Program-made: the position numbers and the translations under genes | NCBI GenBank assembly: GCA_900320855.1 | Contig: ONTV01000005.1 | Coordinates: 1-38,005 of the forward strand | Origin: an uncultured Lentisphaerota bacterium | GTDB lineage: Bacteria > Verrucomicrobiota > Kiritimatiellia > RFP12 > UBA1067 | Direction of reading: 5' to 3' | Length of the DNA stretch: 38,005 nucleotides | Shown here: in pieces, positions 3-26,336 of the stretch | How the letters are laid out: each line of letters begins with the position of its first letter | How positions within the stretch are numbered: position 1 is the stretch's first letter | The notes under the pieces: model-generated | What the model was told of the DNA's origin: nothing | The model's input: only the letters and a program-made list of their open reading frames with translations | The model's database searches: none

Positions 3-1013
3 AACATCGGTGCGGTCATGCATGCGGCGAAGAGCGACAGCCGTGCCAAGCTTGTGGCCTCGCCGATTATCATGACACTTGACAACAAGGAGGCGACGAT
101 TGAAGCGACCAAGATGCGTTACTTGCTAAAAGGATATACCTATTCAGGTTCGACTTACAACGGAAGTGCAGTGCCGGACTATGAACAGAAGGAAATTGGC
201 TTGACGGCGAAAATCACGCCTAAAATCAATCCGAACGGGACGGTCATGCTGACAATTGAGGAGGAGTTCTCCGCGTTGGGGGATAGCCAGACCATCCAAG
301 CGGCGACAGGAGGAACGTCAAACAACCAACAGGTTGTCAGCGGAATCAACGTCGAGACGACGGTCACACGCAAACTGTCAGCCGACATCACCGTCGAGAA
401 TCGTCAGACAGTTGTCTTGGGGGGACTTTCTCAGACTGAGTATTCGACGGTTGACAGTGGCATCCCGATTCTGAAGGATATCCCCTATATTGGACGCTAT
501 CTTTTCGGCTCGACGAAGGACGTTGAGACTCGGCAGGAACTTTTGATGTTCTTGACTCCTTATGTGCTCGACGATGCGGAGAGTGCGGTTGCGGAGGCGC
601 GGAGGCGCAAGTTGACATTGAGCGATGACAGACCGTGGGACGATCACGGTTGGAGCGCATCGCCATTGGCCGATGCGGTGTCTCTCAAGGAATTGCTGAA
701 GCGGCGTCAGCGTGAATGGGCGGCGCAGGACAAAGAGTATGAGGCCCAGTTGGAATTGGCAAAGAAAAACGAAAAGAGGGTCGAGGAATTGAAGGCGCGC
801 GCGGCAAAGGAAATGGCGTTGCGTGCGGCTGAGGCCAAGCGCTTGACGGATGCAATCAATGCGGTCGAGGAGAAGAAAGCTGAGGCGCGTGCTGGGGCTG
901 AGGTCAAGGTACGTGAAATGAACGCAGGACTTTTGCGGCAGTTGGAATCGGAATCCGAGGCGGCGGCCGAGGAGAAGAAGGCCGGCGCTGTCGAGAAGGC
1001 GAAGGGCGAGTGA
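3..1013 (+). CDS. gspD: Secretin (GspD/PilQ family), 3' part, with coiled-coil tail
   Basis: Outer-membrane secretin channel, C-terminal part only; the frame is open to the window's left edge. The S/beta-barrel region is recognisable from the segment LDNKEATI and from the signature VVLGGL followed by GIPILKDIPYIGRYLF and a LLMFLTPYVL end (about residues 135-187 counted from the ATG at 18). After it comes an unusual tail of roughly 110 residues rich in Lys, Glu, Ala and Arg, predicted by eye as one long coiled coil; most secretins end soon after the barrel. It belongs with the pseudopilin genes 33 kb downstream (33763-36863), as type II secretion or type IV pilus parts. Base composition is clearly less GC-rich, with many TTG codons, than every later gene. 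Identity as secretin is secure; GspD versus PilQ is not settled. Confidence 0.9.
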   Translation, partial: NIGAVMHAAKSDSRAKLVASPIIMTLDNKEATIEATKMRYLLKGYTYSGSTYNGSAVPDYEQKEIGLTAKITPKINPNGTVMLTIEEEFSALGDSQTIQAATGGTSNNQQVVSGINVETTVTRKLSADITVENRQTVVLGGLSQTEYSTVDSGIPILKDIPYIGRYLFGSTKDVETRQELLMFLTPYVLDDAESAVAEARRRKLTLSDDRPWDDHGWSASPLADAVSLKELLKRRQREWAAQDKEYEAQLELAKKNEKRVEELKARAAKEMALRAAEAKRLTDAINAVEEKKAEARAGAEVKVREMNAGLLRQLESESEAAAEEKKAGAVEKAKGE

Positions 1014-19412: not shown

Positions 19413-19571
19413 GCATCTTTCAACGACGTGGGTCCTGGGTTGCACGCGGATTCAGCAGAAGTTTCTTCGACCGACATTTGAATAGGGAGCGTCAGCTCCA
19501 CATTTGGAACGACGGGTTCCGGGGATTCTGTGCTACGGCAGTCTGGGATCTTTTTCAGGGGAAAGTCCGCC
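19413..19571. other. Intergenic region with two adjacent perfect hairpins
   Basis: 159 bases of lower GC. GGAGC-GTCA-GCTCC (19486-19499) and GGAAC-GACGG-GTTCC (19506-19520) are two small hairpins six bases apart, an arrangement like paired REP hairpins. I see no TGNTATAAT box. AGGGGA at 19557-19562 is the ribosome site of the next gene. The open frames across it look like chance. Confidence 0.6.
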
Positions 19572-19988
19572 ATGGGAATCGGGCATCTTCCGTTTGCCGC
19601 CGCCGCGCTGGCGGCCATTGCGCTCCTGTCGGGGTGCCATGTCGGGCGGCACTATTCGGTCGTGCCGGAGCGCAACCAGGTCTTGGCCGCCCAGAGCGGC
19701 GACCGCTTTTTCTTCGACCTTGAGGAGAACGCGACGACGGGATACGCCTGGCGTGCGACGTGCGACGACGCGGACGTGTCCGTTCGGGTGACGCACGTCG
19801 CCGGCGAGTCGGACGCGGGGCTTGTCGGCGTGCCCGGAAAGGCCGAAGTCGAGATTCGCGTCCATCGCGGCTACGACGGGCCTTCGGCCATCCGGTTCCA
19901 GTACCGCCGCGCGTGGGAGGCGCGTCCGCTCAAGGAATTCACGATCACCCTCCACAAGCGCACGGGCGACCGCGCGTTCTGGGAATGA
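19572..19988 (+). CDS. Chagasin-like (I42) cysteine protease inhibitor lipoprotein
   Basis: A 138-residue exported lipoprotein: signal sequence with lipobox LLSGC (Cys about 22), then a small beta-rich domain. The three chagasin loops are recognisable: NATTGYAW (the family's NPTTGY-W, with Ala for Pro), a VGVPGKAEVEI segment in place of the Gly-rich loop, and RRAW near the end in place of RPW. Members inhibit papain-type cysteine proteases. In bacteria they may guard the envelope against the cell's own or host proteases; which applies here is unknown. It starts after AGGGGA (19557-19562), 9 bases upstream. It stands between pheT and thrS with no functional link to either. Confidence 0.75.
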   Translation: MGIGHLPFAAAALAAIALLSGCHVGRHYSVVPERNQVLAAQSGDRFFFDLEENATTGYAWRATCDDADVSVRVTHVAGESDAGLVGVPGKAEVEIRVHRGYDGPSAIRFQYRRAWEARPLKEFTITLHKRTGDRAFWE

Positions 19989-20037: not shown

Positions 20038-21780
20038 ATGTCAGAGATCAGCGAGCAGCAGAGACGGCATTCCGCCGCGCACATGATGGCGCGGGCGGTC
20101 ATGAACCTTTTTGACGACGTGCAGGTCGACATCGGGCCGGCGACGGACGACGGCTTCTACTACGACTTCGACCTTCCCCATCGCATCACGCCGGAGGACT
20201 TCCCGAAGATCGAGGCCGAGATCGCGCGCCTCATCGCGTTGGACGAGCCGTTCGTGCGGAAGGAGGTCTCGGCCGACGAGGCGAAGGCCCTCCTCGCGGG
20301 CCAGAAGTACAAGCTCGAGCGACTCGCTGACGTCGTCGCCGACGGCGGACCGATCTCGACCTACGCGGTCGGCGACTACGTCGAGATGTGCCGTGGGCCG
20401 CACGTCGAGCACGCGAAGCAGATTGGCGTCGTCAAGCTCACGAAGATCGCGGGCAGCTACTATCGCGGCGACGAGAAGAACAAGATGCTCCAGCGCGTCT
20501 ACGGCATCGTCGCGAAGGACCAGAAGGAGCTCGACGAGATCGTCGCCCGCGCGGAGGAGGCGAAGAAGCGCGACCACCGCGTCCTCGGCAAGCAGCTCGG
20601 CCTCTTCACGATCACCGACCAGGTCGGCCCCGGCCTCGCCCACTGGCTGCCGCGCGGCGCGCGCGTGCGCGTCGCGATCGAGGAGTACTGGCGGCGGAAG
20701 CACTACGAGGCGGGCTACGAGATCGTCTACACGCCGCACGTCGGCAAGTCGAACCTCTGGGAGACGTCGGGGCACCTCGGCTTCTACAAGGAGGGCATGT
20801 TCCCGGTGATGAAGGTCCAGGAGGGCGAGGGCAAGGACGCCTACGTCCAGGACTACTACGTCAAGCCGATGAACTGCCCGTTCCACATCCAGTGCTACCA
20901 GTTCGAGAAGCGCTCGTACCGCGACCTGCCGATCCGCTACGCCGAGCTTGGCACGGTCTACCGCTACGAGAAGGACGGCGTGCGGCACGGGCTCTTCCGC
21001 GTGCGCGGCTTCACGCAGGACGACGCGCACATCTTCTGCACGCCCGACCAGATCGTGCAGGAGATCAAGGACACGGTCGAGTTCGCGAAGAAGATGCTCG
21101 GCAAGTTCGGCTTCCACGACATCCAGGCGTATCTCTCGACGAAGCCCGCGAAGGCCGTCGGCGACCCCGCGCGCTGGGAGCAGGCGACGCAGTCGCTGCG
21201 GGACGCGCTCGACCAGGAGGGGATGAGCTACGAGGTCGACGAGGGCGGCGGCGCGTTCTACGGCCCGAAGATCGACATGAAGATCAAGGACGCGCTCGGC
21301 CGCCCGTGGCAGCTCGGCACCGTCCAGTTTGACTTCAACCTGCCGGAGCGCTTCAACCTCACCTATGTCGGCGACGACGGCAAGGAGCATCAGCCCTACA
21401 TGGTGCATCGCGCGCTCCTCGGCTCGATCGAGCGCTTCTTCGGCATCCTCATCGAACACTACGCGGGCGCGTTCCCGCTCTGGCTCGCGCCGGAGCAGGT
21501 GCGTGTCCTGCCGATCTCCGACAAGGCGATGGACTACGCGAAGAAAGTCCAGTCGGCCCTGCGGGCGGCGGGCTTCCGCGTGGACGTGGACGCGTCGGCG
21601 GAGAAGCTCGGCGCGAAGATCCGCGCGGCGACGCTCATGAAGGTGCCCTACCAGGTCGTGGTCGGGCCGCGCGACGAGGCGGCGGAGCAGATCTCCGTGC
21701 GCAGCCGGGCGGACGGCGACCTCGGCGCGATGAAGCTGCCCGACTTCGTGGCGCGGCTGCGCGCGGAGCTGGAGGCGTAG
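20038..21780 (+). CDS. thrS: Threonine-tRNA ligase lacking the TGS domain
   Basis: Charges tRNA-Thr and edits Ser-tRNA-Thr. The 580-residue product starts directly in the N2 editing domain (H11-x3-H15, later CRGPH) without the roughly 60-residue N-terminal TGS domain of most bacterial enzymes. The class II core has the zinc ligands in NCPFHIQ, RHGLFRVRGFTQDDAHIFC and IEHYAGAFPLWLAPEQV; the C-terminal 100 residues are the anticodon-binding domain (VRVLPISDKAMDYAKKV). AAGGAGA lies 4 bases before the ATG, and upstream of it is only the promoter, so the short form is genuine and not a missed start. It is followed by the pilin-like cluster after 22 bases. Confidence 0.95.
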   Translation: MSEISEQQRRHSAAHMMARAVMNLFDDVQVDIGPATDDGFYYDFDLPHRITPEDFPKIEAEIARLIALDEPFVRKEVSADEAKALLAGQKYKLERLADVVADGGPISTYAVGDYVEMCRGPHVEHAKQIGVVKLTKIAGSYYRGDEKNKMLQRVYGIVAKDQKELDEIVARAEEAKKRDHRVLGKQLGLFTITDQVGPGLAHWLPRGARVRVAIEEYWRRKHYEAGYEIVYTPHVGKSNLWETSGHLGFYKEGMFPVMKVQEGEGKDAYVQDYYVKPMNCPFHIQCYQFEKRSYRDLPIRYAELGTVYRYEKDGVRHGLFRVRGFTQDDAHIFCTPDQIVQEIKDTVEFAKKMLGKFGFHDIQAYLSTKPAKAVGDPARWEQATQSLRDALDQEGMSYEVDEGGGAFYGPKIDMKIKDALGRPWQLGTVQFDFNLPERFNLTYVGDDGKEHQPYMVHRALLGSIERFFGILIEHYAGAFPLWLAPEQVRVLPISDKAMDYAKKVQSALRAAGFRVDVDASAEKLGAKIRAATLMKVPYQVVVGPRDEAAEQISVRSRADGDLGAMKLPDFVARLRAELEA

Positions 21781-21802: not shown

Positions 21803-21946
21803 ATGCGAACGGGCCAATCGCTCCTCGAATACGTGCTGGCGCTGGCGGGGGTCGCCGCCGTGGTCGCCGTGCTGGGATTTCTCGTCTTGGGCGCGGTCGG
21901 CTACGGCGTCCGCACGGAGAGTCTCGTTTCAAGCGAATGTCCGTAG
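21803..21946 (+). CDS. Flp-type pilin-like peptide, 47 residues
   Basis: A short reading frame: MRTGQSLLEYVLALAG, then hydrophobic residues up to about 36 and a short polar end. The pattern basic residue, Gly|Gln-x-x-x-Glu-Tyr, then a membrane helix is the Flp (type IVb) prepilin processing site, with cleavage expected after G4. Only a weak GGGG (21794-21797) precedes the ATG. It is the first of five genes with this type of start. Its cytoplasmic leader of four residues is very short even for Flp pilins. Confidence 0.7.
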   Translation: MRTGQSLLEYVLALAGVAAVVAVLGFLVLGAVGYGVRTESLVSSECP

Positions 21947-21965
21947 GCAAAAAGGAGAACAAGAA

Positions 21966-22184
21966 ATGACGAAAACGCTACGCAAAGGTCAGACGATGGT
22001 CGAGTACATCATCATCGTCGCGCTCATCGCCGTCTCCCTCATCGCCGTCTTCACCTACCTGAGCCGCGCGATCGGCAAGAAGGCCGCCGGCGCAACGGAG
22101 GCCCTGTCGTCCGAGGAGGGCAACAAGGCGAAGTCGGCGGCGGATTCGATCAGTTCGGATTCGATTAAGTCCCTCGGGGAGTGA
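21966..22184 (+). CDS. Flp/Fap-type pilin
   Basis: Major-pilin candidate of a Tad-type pilus. 72 residues: a leader TKTLRKG, the processing site KG|QTMVEY with Glu5-Tyr6, a 22-residue helix (IIIVALIAVSLIAVFTYL) and a hydrophilic Ser/Ala/Lys-rich tail. A strong AAGGAG (21952-21957) 8 bases upstream is the best ribosome site in the cluster, consistent with an abundant structural subunit. No Tad ATPase, secretin partner or prepilin peptidase lies in this window. Confidence 0.85.
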   Translation: MTKTLRKGQTMVEYIIIVALIAVSLIAVFTYLSRAIGKKAAGATEALSSEEGNKAKSAADSISSDSIKSLGE

Positions 22185-22188
22185 GGCC

Positions 22189-22680
22189 GTGCGGCGGGCG
22201 CGCCGAGGCCAGGCGATGGTCGAGACGGTCTTGGCCGTCTTGATCGTCACGTTCGCGTTTCTTGCGCTCTTCCGGCTCTCCACGATGCTGACGGGCAAGA
22301 TCCTCCTCGAACACGCCGCCATGCGCGTCGCGCGCGCCCGCGCCGTCGGGTTCAACGACTACATGTGCCGCAAGATCGCGCGCGTCGCCGTCATCCCCGT
22401 CGCGGGGCGGCGCACCTGGCCGGAGGCGGGGACGGACTGGCGGGACGGGATGGAGCGCGCGCGCGTCGGGGCCTATCTCGCGTCCGAACACGAGGCCGAG
22501 GCGCGCGGCATTCTCGACTACGAACGCTGGGGCGATCTGTCCGTCGCGCCCGGCGACGGCATGGACGCGCGCGTCGGGCTGGACGTCGAGTTGCTCGACG
22601 GCGCGGCGCGCGTCGGGCTGTCCGGCGTGGCTGGCGTCGAGCCGAACCACACGCTGTACTTGAACGACGCGGGACGATGA
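22189..22680 (+). CDS. TadE-like pseudopilin
   Basis: 163 residues. RRARRG|QAMVETVLAVLIVTFAFLAL has the Arg-rich leader, Gly|Gln site and Glu5 of TadE-type minor pilins, followed by a helix and an extracytoplasmic domain with LLEHAAMRVARARAVGF, as in TadE proteins. The GTG start follows the pilin stop by four bases, and GGGGAG precedes it at 22176-22181. It overlaps the next gene by ATGA. Probably a minor subunit or initiator of the same filament. Confidence 0.75.
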   Translation: MRRARRGQAMVETVLAVLIVTFAFLALFRLSTMLTGKILLEHAAMRVARARAVGFNDYMCRKIARVAVIPVAGRRTWPEAGTDWRDGMERARVGAYLASEHEAEARGILDYERWGDLSVAPGDGMDARVGLDVELLDGAARVGLSGVAGVEPNHTLYLNDAGR

Positions 22681-24071
22681 AGACGCGGCGGGGACAGGTT
22701 GCGCTCTATCTCGTGTTTGCGCTCGTCGCGCTCACGGTGCTCGTCCTCATGAACGTCGGCGTCTACCTCGCGGTCACGGCCAAGAACCGCTCGATGAACG
22801 CGGGCGACGCGGCGGCCCTCGCCGTCGCGCGCCATCAGGGCGAGCTGCTGAACGGGATTGGGCGCCTCAACCTCGACCATCTGAAGGCCGCGCTCCAGGG
22901 CGACGCGGAGGAATGCGCGCGTCTCGTGGCGGAGCAGACGCGCCGCTGCTTCCTCGACCCCCTGCAGTGCCTGTCGGTCGGCAGCGCCGCCGCGCAGGCG
23001 AACGGCGCGGAGCCGAGCGACGAAATGCGCGAGATCCTGGCGCTGCACGTCATCGAGATCCGCACGGTCTACGCGACGACGCCGGAGGCGTATCCCGAAC
23101 CTTGGGACGGCGCGTGGGAGGAATATGCGCAGGCGCTGGAGGTCGCAATCGGCGCGCCGCTCTATGCGGGGCCGGACAACGTCACGTTCATGGACGAGGC
23201 GGGCGGACACCTTCTCCTCGAAAAGTCGTTCTACGATGCCGTCGCGGGCCGCAACTGGTGCTGGTTCCATTTCGACGCGGCGGGAATCCTGGACAACTAT
23301 TCGAGCTTCCTCGACTGGGGGCCGTTGCCGCGCGCGGACGACGCGACGCGGCGGCGGCGCTGCGCGAACAGCGAGGTCTACTCGCTCCATCTCGCGCCGC
23401 GCGTGGGGCGCGCGATCGATCTTCTCGGCGACGAGCTGATTGCCCGCCTGACGGATGCGACGCCTGAAGAGATTGCGAATGCGCCGCTGCTGGCCGACCC
23501 GGAGCAGACCTGGTTCTTCTACGACACGACGGACGGCGCGTGGGGGCGCTGGTCGGAAATCGATCCCGACGGCGACGCGCGCTTCCCCGTCGTCGGGTCG
23601 GTGAAGCCGGAGTATGACGTGCAGGGCGCGGCGGCGGCCTGTCGCGTGCGGATGCCGATTCCCAACCTGCTGGAAACGGGTGCCGCGCGCGTTGCGAACT
23701 GGGCGGCGGCGGCCAAGCCCTTTGGCACGGTCGTGGACGAGGCGGGGCGGCTCTCCGTCGTCACGGCGCTGAAGGGGTTCGTCACGCCCGCCTTCGAGGC
23801 CGTGCGGCTCGTGCCGCTCGATGCCGTCGGCGGCAGCGACCTCTCGACCGCCGACCCCGAATGGATGCGCCATCTGCGCGAGGACTTGCCGGCCTATTTC
23901 CGGGGCGGGCCGGACGTGCTGAAGGGCTGCTACTACTGCCGGCAGCTGGTGGACTGGGAGAAGCCGTCCGTCCGCGAGCAGGGCCGCACGTGGCTGAAGT
24001 ACAATTCGTCGAGCTGCCTGCGCCCCACGAGCGGCAGCGGCGGGCGGGGAGGCACGCGACATGGGCATTGA
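22677..24071 (+). CDS. Putative TadG-like pilus assembly protein
   Basis: 464 residues. MKTRRG|QVALYLVFALVALTVLVLMNVGVYLAV is again an Arg-rich leader with Gly|Gln and a membrane helix, followed by the NAGDAAALAVARHQGELLN segment typical of TadG/TadE N-terminal regions (DAAALAGA in the family). The large remaining extracytoplasmic part matches nothing I can name; near the C-terminus it has a Cys-rich motif (GCYYCRQL to SSSC) that could form disulfides. It lacks the Glu5 of classical prepilins, so processing is uncertain. It overlaps both neighbours, so the five genes are one unit. Confidence 0.65.
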   Translation: MKTRRGQVALYLVFALVALTVLVLMNVGVYLAVTAKNRSMNAGDAAALAVARHQGELLNGIGRLNLDHLKAALQGDAEECARLVAEQTRRCFLDPLQCLSVGSAAAQANGAEPSDEMREILALHVIEIRTVYATTPEAYPEPWDGAWEEYAQALEVAIGAPLYAGPDNVTFMDEAGGHLLLEKSFYDAVAGRNWCWFHFDAAGILDNYSSFLDWGPLPRADDATRRRRCANSEVYSLHLAPRVGRAIDLLGDELIARLTDATPEEIANAPLLADPEQTWFFYDTTDGAWGRWSEIDPDGDARFPVVGSVKPEYDVQGAAAACRVRMPIPNLLETGAARVANWAAAAKPFGTVVDEAGRLSVVTALKGFVTPAFEAVRLVPLDAVGGSDLSTADPEWMRHLREDLPAYFRGGPDVLKGCYYCRQLVDWEKPSVREQGRTWLKYNSSSCLRPTSGSGGRGGTRHGH

Positions 24072-24336
24072 GCGCGAGATGCCCGGCGGCGCCCGTGGCC
24101 AGGCGCTGATGGAACTGGCCGTCGGCCTGTTTGCGCTCGCGCTCGTCGTCAGCGCGCTTTGCGGCTTCGCGCATTACATCGCCAAGTCCCTGCGCGTTCA
24201 AAACGAGCTGCGCGTCGGCGGCAAGCGGTCGGATTCCGTCGAAATTTCCTCGTGGGCCGCGCAGCACGTCTTTGGCGCGGAGACCTTGAAGATCTCTGAA
24301 AAACTTAACTGGCCCTCGACGACCATCTTGAAATGA
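24061..24336 (+). CDS. TadE-like small pseudopilin
   Basis: 91 residues; REMPGGARG|QALMELAVGLFALALVVSALCGF gives the leader, site, Glu5 and helix of a TadE-type minor pilin; the extracytoplasmic tail is only about 50 residues. The start lies 11 bases inside the previous gene. The last codons and the stop coincide with the first unit of the CTTGAAAT repeat array that begins at 24327. Confidence 0.7.
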   Translation: MGIEREMPGGARGQALMELAVGLFALALVVSALCGFAHYIAKSLRVQNELRVGGKRSDSVEISSWAAQHVFGAETLKISEKLNWPSTTILK

Positions 24337-24412
24337 AAGAGAGCCGGCCTTATAGCCTTGAAATGACGCCGGCCCGATGACTTGAAATCAAGCGGCCCGA
24401 TAACCTTGAAAT
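24327..24412 (+). repeat. CTTGAAAT tandem array, four units
   Basis: CTTGAAAT at 24327, 24357, 24381 and 24405 (spacings 30, 24, 24). The first and last units continue as GAAAGAGA, and the middle ones end in GGCCCGAT. ATGAAAGAGA is thus present twice, at 24333 (overlapping the previous stop) and at 24411 (a possible start of the next gene). Confidence 0.85.
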
Positions 24413-24425
24413 GAAAGAGAACGCG

Positions 24426-25457
24426 ATGAGGCTCAACGAACTCGAAAAGCTGGCGAAGCGGCGGCGTCTCGACGTCGTCCTCGTTTGCGCAGAACCCAAC
24501 ATCCTTGCCTTGACGGGCATTCGGTGCGACAATGCCGTTCTGGTGGGGAAAGTGGGAAGGTGGGAAAGTGGGAAGGTGGGAAGGTGCCTCCACACCGACT
24601 TTCGCTATGTGCCGATGGTGCATCGCGTCGCGCCGGACCTCGATTGCCGCGACCTCAAGGAACTGAAGATCCGGGGGCGCCGCATCGGCTACGAGTCGTC
24701 GATTTCGCATGCGCAGTTCCTCAAGTTCCAGAAGCTCGCGCCGCGCGGCGCGACGTTCGTCGACGTCGCGGACGACCTTCTTGCGATTCGCGCCGTGAAG
24801 ACGCCGGACGAGATCGCGAAGATCCGCGCGGCGGAAGCGCTTACCTGCAAAATCTGGCGCACGGCGTCCGCGCGCTTCCGCGCCGGTATGACGGAGCGCG
24901 ACATGGCGCGGATCATCCAGAAGCTGATGATCGAGAAGGGCGAGGGCGAGGCGTTCGGGACAATCGTCTGCGTCGGGAAGAACGCCGCCGAATGCCATCA
25001 TGAGCCGGACGAAACGGTCTGGAACGGACGCGAGCCCGTGCTCGTGGACATGGGCGTGCGCCTCGGCGGCGTCTGCGGCGACCTGACGCGCAACCTCGTC
25101 CCCGGCCTCCAAACCTCCAAACTTTACCGCCAGGTCTATGCGCTCGTCGCGGAGGCGAATCGTGCGGCGATTGCGGCGGCGAAGCCGGGGATGACGGGAA
25201 AGGCGCTGGACAAGGTCGCGCGCGACGTCATCGCGAAGGGCGGCTTCGGGAAGTGCTTCGGTCACTCGCTGGGGCATGGCGTCGGCTACGAGATCCACGA
25301 GGCGCCCGTCGCCTCGCCCAGGAGCGACACGGTCTTGAAGCCGGGGATGTGCGTGACGATCGAGCCGGGCATCTACCTGGAAGGCAACCTCGGCGTCCGC
25401 ATCGAGGATCTCGTCCTCATCACGGAAACCGGCTGCGAAGTCCTGTCCAAGCCGTAG
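24426..25457 (+). CDS. M24-family aminopeptidase (Xaa-Pro peptidase type)
   Basis: Cytoplasmic dimetal peptidase cleaving N-terminal residues, probably before Pro. About 343 residues: a small N-terminal creatinase-like domain (1-110), then the pita-bread fold with the metal ligands visible (Asp in VDMGVRLGG, Asp in CGDLTRN, His in GHSLGHGVGYEIHEAP, Glu in TIEPGIY, Glu in RIEDLVLIT) and a His pair in ECHHEP. ATG 24426 is favoured (AAAGAGA 5 bases upstream); ATG 24411 lies in the repeat array and adds five residues. Two repeat tracts sit in the gene: an 8-bp array at 24543-24582 encoding GKVGRWESGKVGR in the N-terminal domain, and two CCTCCAAA units at 25106-25121 after the second metal Asp. 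Both look like in-frame insertions in surface loops. Confidence 0.88.
   Translation: MRLNELEKLAKRRRLDVVLVCAEPNILALTGIRCDNAVLVGKVGRWESGKVGRCLHTDFRYVPMVHRVAPDLDCRDLKELKIRGRRIGYESSISHAQFLKFQKLAPRGATFVDVADDLLAIRAVKTPDEIAKIRAAEALTCKIWRTASARFRAGMTERDMARIIQKLMIEKGEGEAFGTIVCVGKNAAECHHEPDETVWNGREPVLVDMGVRLGGVCGDLTRNLVPGLQTSKLYRQVYALVAEANRAAIAAAKPGMTGKALDKVARDVIAKGGFGKCFGHSLGHGVGYEIHEAPVASPRSDTVLKPGMCVTIEPGIYLEGNLGVRIEDLVLITETGCEVLSKP
24543..24582 (+). repeat. (RGTGGGAA)n octamer array inside the M24 peptidase gene
   Basis: Four exact 8-bp units (24551-24582) plus a degenerate one before them, alternating AGTGGGAA and GGTGGGAA. Three units equal eight codons, so the protein repeats GKVGRWES. It stays in frame. 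Confidence 0.9.
25106..25121 (+). repeat. Two CCTCCAAA octamers inside the M24 peptidase gene
   Basis: Direct 8-bp pair, the same octamer family as the longer array in kdsB 950 bases downstream. Confidence 0.7.
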
Positions 25458-25511: not shown

Positions 25512-26336
25512 ATGAAGACATATGGAATCATTCCGAGCCGGTTCGGTTCGAGCCGCTTTCCCGGCAAGCCGCTCGCGAACCTCGCGGGCAAACCCCTCGT
25601 CGCGTGGGTCGTCGAGGCGGTGAAGAAGGCGAAGGGCCTGGACGCCGTTGTGGTCGCGACGGACGACGAACGCATCGTGAAGGCCGTCGAGGCGTGCGGC
25701 GGCATCGCCGTCCTGACGCCGAGCGACCTGCCGAGCGGCACGGATCGCATCGCCTGCGCCGCGCGCCGCTATCTGGGGGGTGACTTCGGCGACGACGACA
25801 TTCTCGTGAACGTCCAGGGCGACGAGCCGCTGATCGATCCCGCGCTCGTCGAGGCGCTCGCGGCGAAGCTGAAGGACGACGCTCGTTGGTCGATGGCGAC
25901 GGCCGTCACGCCGATCCGCTGCGCGGCGGACTTCGCGGCGAGGACGGTCGTGAAGGTCGTCCTCGACCGCGACGACGGCGCGCTCTACTTCTCCCGCGCG
26001 CCGATTCCCTGCGACCGCGACCACACCCCGACGTTCCAAACGCCCGCCCCCCCAAACTCCCAAACCTCCAAACTCCCAAACCTCCAAACTCCCAAACCTT
26101 CGAACTCCCTCTACGTCCGCCACCTCGGCATCTACGCCTATCGCGGCGCGTTCCTGAAGCGGTACATCGCCGAGCCGCCGTGCGAACTTGAGAAGACGGA
26201 GAAGCTGGAGCAGCTTCGGGCGCTTTGGATGGGTGCGAAGATCGCGGTCGTGCGGACGGACGACGAGGGCGTGGGCGTCGACACGCCCGAGGACGCCGCG
26301 CGCGTCGAACAGCTGCTCCTTGCGCGACATGCCTGA
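25512..26336 (+). CDS. kdsB: 3-deoxy-manno-octulosonate cytidylyltransferase (CMP-KDO synthetase)
   Basis: Activates KDO with CTP for the inner core of LPS, so the organism makes an LPS-type outer membrane. 274 residues, about 25 more than usual. The nucleotide-binding start IIPSRFGSSRFPGKPL, VVVATDD, the LPSGTDRIA loop, VNVQGDEPLID, LYFSRAPIP, RHLGIYAYR and GVDTPEDAARVE are all in place. The extra residues form one insert between CDRDH and YVRHLGIYAYR, encoded by the 8-bp array at 26052-26099 and its flank (Pro/Ser/Thr/Gln/Asn-rich). In the family this position is a variable surface loop, so activity is probably kept. Its stop lies inside azlC's first codons. Confidence 0.95.
   Translation: MKTYGIIPSRFGSSRFPGKPLANLAGKPLVAWVVEAVKKAKGLDAVVVATDDERIVKAVEACGGIAVLTPSDLPSGTDRIACAARRYLGGDFGDDDILVNVQGDEPLIDPALVEALAAKLKDDARWSMATAVTPIRCAADFAARTVVKVVLDRDDGALYFSRAPIPCDRDHTPTFQTPAPPNSQTSKLPNLQTPKPSNSLYVRHLGIYAYRGAFLKRYIAEPPCELEKTEKLEQLRALWMGAKIAVVRTDDEGVGVDTPEDAARVEQLLLARHA
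26052..26099 (+). repeat. (CCAAACYY)6 octamer array inside kdsB
   Basis: Six 8-bp units alternating CCAAACTC and CCAAACCT, 48 bases, exactly 16 codons. Flanked by degenerate units on both sides. Confidence 0.9.

Follow-up and report, generated by a model that had tools for sequence, protein, structure and literature searches.

It is very probable that five consecutive prepilin-like genes in the window (the whole stretch of DNA analysed here, 38,005 nt of the forward strand of contig ONTV01000005.1, assembly GCA_900320855.1, labelled C62) are the pilin set of a Tad system belonging to the core of the class, and that in the genus of the host this system now lies in at least three separate pieces. 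Comparison of gene order among relatives suggests that the ancestral Tad locus was repeatedly scattered without loss of the system.

The host genome consists of 217 contigs (2.4 Mb, 87% complete). The comparison covers 52 fetched loci, in which some genomes are present twice (two collections), and the number of distinct flp1 DNA sequences is 43. The linkage of tadG and tadA was compared in 106 genomes, and locus maps were drawn for 26 core loci. In the following, "the genus" is the genus of the window, and f3, f4 and f8 are families of relatives.

The Five Prepilin Genes

The initial annotation had proposed five consecutive prepilin-like genes, overlapping or nearly touching, with G/Q leaders (the slash marks the junction). 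All five open reading frames are present at the positions given in Table 1, separated by overlaps or gaps of 4–19 bp, and each product opens with a short leader of basic character, after whose G/Q junction comes a hydrophobic segment. The 464-residue member reads QVALYL after the junction and lacks Glu at +5, as noted earlier. None of the pilins of the window itself reaches a curated Pfam cut-off. Synteny in relatives, which had been suggested as a check, gave a clear picture: the order flp1-flp2-tadE-tadG is the same in 49 of the 52 fetched loci (some genomes being counted twice), and orthologues of TadG were found in 54 of 58 relatives. Therefore, the clustering of the five genes is far beyond chance.

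Table 1. Coordinates of the genes discussed in the text (window positions unless a locus is named).
Feature	Position	Strand	Remarks
Secretin, C-terminal half	3-1013		PF00263 E=5e-39; frame cut by the contig start
thrS, upstream neighbor	20038..21780	+	ends 22 bp before flp1
flp1, mini-prepilin, 47 aa	21803..21946	+	MRTG/QSLLEY...SSECP; orthologues in 43 distinct loci; pN<pS
flp2, Flp-type prepilin, 72 aa	21966..22184	+	KG/QTMVEYIIIV; PF04964 below cut-off; conserved Q at +1 and E at +5
tadE-like minor prepilin, 163 aa	22189..22680	+	GTG start; PF07811 matches among orthologues
tadG-like large minor prepilin, 464 aa	22677..24071	+	C-terminal GCxYC...C; PF13400 in orthologues
tadF-like minor prepilin, 91 aa	24061..24336	+	GG..RG/QALMEL; position, motif, weak PF07811 in orthologues
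Xaa-Pro peptidase (M24), downstream neighbor	24411..25457	+	PF00557 E=2e-62
Gene X, between tadF and cpaB	L065:7539-8249; L181:215-895	-	intact loci of relatives

The shortest frame had been called easy to miss, and its lack of conservation had been named among the observations that would speak against the proposal. Instead, the mature Flp1 has exactly 43 residues and a Gly at -1 in 42 of the 43 distinct sequences, while in the remaining one Ala replaces this Gly and the mature length is 43 too. The invariant or nearly invariant positions include G(-1), Q+1, E+5, Y+6, an R, an L and the final P, and the C-terminus of the orthologues is LVxS[DE]YP-like. No convincing family match of Flp1 was found in Pfam. 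In 854 of 861 flp1 pairs, which are non-independent, pN is lower than pS, and close pairs alone also show this (for example, pN 0.010 vs pS 0.340). The conserved 47-residue frame is thus a genuine gene under purifying selection. Flp2 matches Flp_Fap PF04964 with E=5.6e-6 and 26.5 bits, which is under the cut-off of 32.2, and all 38 of its orthologues carry Q at +1 and E at +5; Flp2 is likely the major pilin.

The three remaining genes resemble the minor prepilins of Tad systems. The TadE-like protein of the window matches TadE PF07811 below the cut-off (E=0.008), and 20 of 25 orthologues match the same family (best 8.8e-8). Its AF2 model has a pLDDT of 89.9, and the best Z in the VIA comparison was 5.2 over 69 residues, for a competence pilin, which is hardly higher than the values of unrelated rows. 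The TadG-like protein behaves similarly towards Tad PF13400 (E=0.022, below the cut-off; 19 of 33 orthologues match, best 1.4e-8), and its gene is conserved class-wide. The initial annotation had pointed out the Cys-rich end of this protein: C418, C421 and C447 are conserved in at least 90% of the 33 orthologues and C195 is invariant, so this end is a family trait and its cysteines probably form disulfides. Structure prediction, also suggested earlier, gave a confident AF2 model of the TadG-like protein (pLDDT 89.2, pTM 0.87) with an N-terminal helix of 70 residues followed by a mixed domain. A Foldseek search of the TadG-like and TadE-like models against the PDB returned nothing at E<=1e-3, and the VIA comparison of the TadG-like model was uninformative (best Z 3.4); such a lack of PDB matches does not show a new fold. 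Among the orthologues of the fifth protein 7 of 19 match TadE PF07811, weakly (best 3.5e-4), and by its position and motif the fifth gene is TadF-like.

Tad Machinery outside the Window

It had been stated that the window holds no Tad ATPase, platform protein or peptidase. This is consistent with our search, in which T2SSE, T2SSF and A24 peptidase gave no match on C62; apart from the secretin half at its start, nothing resembling a machine gene was found in the window. The earlier guess that a Flp-type filament could use machinery at a distant site is supported as well: TadA, TadB, TadC and CpaB are encoded on other contigs, and in many relatives the five genes are immediately followed by the orthologues of these four. 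Both a Tad ATPase and a prepilin peptidase, whose absence from the genome would have spoken against such a filament, are present.

The host genome encodes two Tad machines, a dispersed one and a self-contained one. To the dispersed machine belong a TadA with an FHA domain (TadA2) and the adjoining CpaB (CpaB2) on contig C61, a tadB2 gene that begins on C61 and runs onto C10, and, on C35, TadC followed by an FHA protein and a PEGA protein. TadA2 matches the solved CpaF in the PDB with E=4e-129 as well as T2SSE PF00437; it keeps the Walker A motif GGTGSGKTT, and its FHA domain (PF00498) covers residues 21-85 with E=2e-15. CpaB2 matches RcpC PF16976 with E=3e-25. The T2SSF matches on C10 and C35 are the paired single-domain platform proteins TadB and TadC, whose genes adjoin tadA in intact loci. 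The self-contained machine (Tad1, locus L020 on contig C99) comprises three Flp-like genes, a CpaA-type peptidase, TadE- and TadG-like genes, CpaB, a secretin, TadA, TadB and TadC. Its Flp pilins have A, T or S at +1, its TadA is 55-57% identical to TadA2 over the matched part, and loci of this type are patchy among the relatives. A24 prepilin peptidases, whose genes may stand apart in Tad systems, are encoded on C99 and C19, and a peptidase of this family was found in 21 of 21 near-complete relatives.

The host genome carries four secretin genes elsewhere, and no relative is without a secretin match; the search of the four own secretins against the 26 core loci (E<=1e-3) gave no match. The secretin on C24, considered as the dedicated partner, has good orthologues in most of the genus and in some other families, while family f3, which possesses the pilin set, yields only weak matches, and these to other secretins than the C24 type. 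A TadV/peptidase was not identified in the core locus of any relative, and, without a dedicated model for TadZ, neither TadZ nor TadD was noticed there.

The Ancestral Locus and Its Scattering

In Kiritimatiellae relatives the genes form a single locus of the order flp1-flp2-tadE-tadG-tadF-X-cpaB-tadA(FHA)-tadB-tadC-FHA-PEGA. This order is full or nearly full in many of the 26 mapped loci, and for two of them (L168, L169) the genome is a single contig. Two families belonging to the host's order have FHA-TadA and TadB within 2-4 kb after the orthologue of the 464-residue protein. Because ancestral synteny joins the five genes to TadA2 in relatives, we assign them to this machine.

The genes tadG and tadA are less than 6 kb apart on the same strand in 47 of the 106 genomes; these 47 include 38 of the 43 class genomes that do not belong to the families examined in detail. 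On the other hand, they lie on separate contigs in all 30 genomes of the genus, in 7 of 7 genomes of family f3 and in 6 of 6 of f4, and in G076 (family f8) they are 188 kb apart on one contig. Separate contigs alone could reflect the assembly; however, cpaB and tadA are both missing from the 8 kb that follow tadG in the loci of the genus, and in the window from 13.7 kb, and the distance in G076 was measured within one contig. Therefore, the split in the genus is not a contig-end artefact. Since tadG and tadA stay together in two further genera of the family to which the host belongs, the split lies within this family.

Despite the scattering, TadG, TadA2 and TadB2 are each present in 21 of 21 near-complete members of the order. 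Some families of the class lack both TadG and TadA2, and thus losses have occurred in the class. Gene X of the intact loci encodes a product of about 230 residues with a likely signal peptide and conserved GG..N and GW motifs, for which no Pfam family was found. It was sought in 35 genomes of the genus and found in none, which suggests that gene X was lost there.

Proposed Mechanism and Alternative Readings

An A24 peptidase encoded elsewhere (on C19 or C99) would cleave after the G of each G/Q leader, and the FHA-TadA motor would then, together with the TadB/TadC platform, extract the mature pilins from the inner membrane. Flp2, perhaps with Flp1, would build the filament, and TadE, TadF and the Cys-rich TadG could sit at its tip or prime its assembly, in line with the proposal made for CpaJ/K/L of Caulobacter. 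CpaB/RcpC is the periplasmic partner of Tad secretins; here CpaB would align the filament within the periplasm, and a secretin from another site in the genome would let it out. The filament is thus predicted to be exposed on the surface and to serve in adhesion, perhaps under FHA control.

One could argue that without a linked secretin the product is a short periplasmic pseudopilus, the second option of the initial annotation, or a secretion piston and not a surface pilus. The four own secretins found no match in the 26 core loci, whereas the C99 operon has one, and the large TadG-like protein has a fold without a confident structural match. Yet CpaB/RcpC is encoded in the locus, secretins are available elsewhere in the host and in every relative, and Flp2 is a normal Flp-type pilin, which makes the pseudopilus unlikely in our opinion. 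We give less weight still to a contact-dependent killing apparatus in place of an adhesive pilus. The Kil system of Myxococcus xanthus is without TadG and has its own short secretin, while the present system includes TadG and yielded no linked secretin; the features shared with Kil are the FHA-fused TadA, the FHA protein encoded with tadC and the split genes (PMC8460266).

The five pilins could also be extra substrates of the self-contained C99 machine. Such cross-use is physically possible, as the peptidase, CpaB, secretin, TadA, TadB and TadC of that machine are encoded in the same genome and such systems are known to be able to exchange their peptidases (PMC6668835). However, we rejected the C99 machine as the partner of these pilins and hold cross-use to be highly improbable: Tad1 comes with a Flp-, TadE- and TadG-like set of its own and is patchily distributed, at E<=1e-40 the FHA-TadA2 type is the sole ATPase in most of the near-complete relatives that carry the five genes, and ancestral synteny joins the cluster to TadA2. 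Hardly credible, finally, is a decaying, nonworking Tad remnant, given five intact frames, the purifying selection on flp1, the retained Walker A motif of TadA2, the presence of the components in all near-complete members of the order and the promoter-like elements of the separated parts. What one could cite for decay is the fragmented locus, the disappearance of gene X from the genus and the loss of the promoter in the window.

The reading of the five genes as the pilin set of a scattered core Tad system can be carried further. The system could be a core Tad machine of a diderm class that lacks a dedicated secretin and borrows one or stays within the envelope, has a motor controlled by FHA phosphopeptide binding and an obligatory mini-pilin with a fixed length of 43 residues, and forms a separate branch, possibly Kil-like in acting on contact. 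We regard this extended version as doubtful, though conceivable.

Relation to Known Systems

The system resembles the Tad/Flp pili (type IVc; cpa of Caulobacter, tad of Aggregatibacter) in its Flp pilins, its TadE/F/G-like proteins, its CpaF-type ATPase, TadB, TadC and RcpC/CpaB, and all defining Tad parts appear to be present except a linked secretin. It differs from these pili in the N-terminal FHA domain of TadA and in the FHA and PEGA proteins of the locus; its loci yielded no linked secretin, and no TadZ, TadD or peptidase was noticed in them. Moreover, of its two Flp genes one encodes an unusual mini-pilin of fixed length. The C99 locus of the same genome has Flp-, TadE- and TadG-like genes, CpaB, TadA, TadB and TadC in common with it; contrastingly, it is self-contained, owns a secretin and a peptidase, is patchily distributed and does not have Q at +1 of its Flp pilins.

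Kil of Myxococcus xanthus is a Tad-like system with an FHA-fused ATPase and extra FHA proteins, encoded in two gene clusters, and this splitting was called a unique situation (PMC8460266). Compared by description, with genes alone on our side, both systems have an FHA-fused Tad ATPase, associated FHA proteins and distant split clusters. The differences are that TadG is missing from Kil, whose short secretin and peptidase genes are linked, whereas here TadG is present and the pilins are the separated part. Judging from its genes, this scattered core Tad system, FHA-coupled and with no linked secretin found, would be a variant of the known Tad machines.

One Tad system looks vertically kept throughout the class and was scattered several times, while the second, single-locus Tad system in the same genome is patchy; such a pair allows the proposal that operon integrity and transfer are linked to be tested directly within one clade. 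The findings also raise the question of how a diderm Tad machine without a linked secretin exits through the outer membrane. A literature search for Tad pili in Kiritimatiellota/Verrucomicrobia found nothing relevant, and what is likely an adhesion system of bacteria common in the ruminant gut seems hitherto undescribed.

Promoters and Neighboring Genes

An extended -10 element, TGnTATAAT, is found 6-9 bases before the start of flp1 in 29 of 43 orthologous loci. The flp1 of the window lacks it, and among the fetched loci only this genome has thrS upstream of flp1. Since the window's flp1 is without this element and begins 22 bp past thrS, it may share the thrS transcript and depend on read-through. 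Extended -10 elements stand directly before cpaB2 and tadB2, and TTGACA-18-TATACT precedes tadC2; the parts now lying apart seem to possess their own promoters. The M24 peptidase gene is found downstream in most loci of the genus and is outside the Tad system.

In 287 kb, both strands considered, TGnTATAAT-like elements lie 5-10 bases before start codons at 14 of 36 sites (permuted motifs: 0 of 1). Genes with such an element include ruvB, gatB-like, gpsA-like, kdsB-like, cpaB and tadB, and the positions are 25503, 13417 and 15472 in the window, 7259, 6155 and 82 (-) in L022 and 6113 (-) in L145. This closeness to the start codons predicts widespread leaderless mRNAs in the group.

Between pheT and thrS lies a small lipoprotein-like open reading frame (19530-19988), whose ATTGYAW resembles chagasin-type protease inhibitors as far as a reading of the sequence alone can tell. 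Minisatellites of the GGGAAGGT / CCCAAACT type occur in the M24 peptidase gene (24546-24586) and in the kdsB-like gene (26035-26109); both lie inside reading frames that stay unbroken, and the same family is found at L143:10760.
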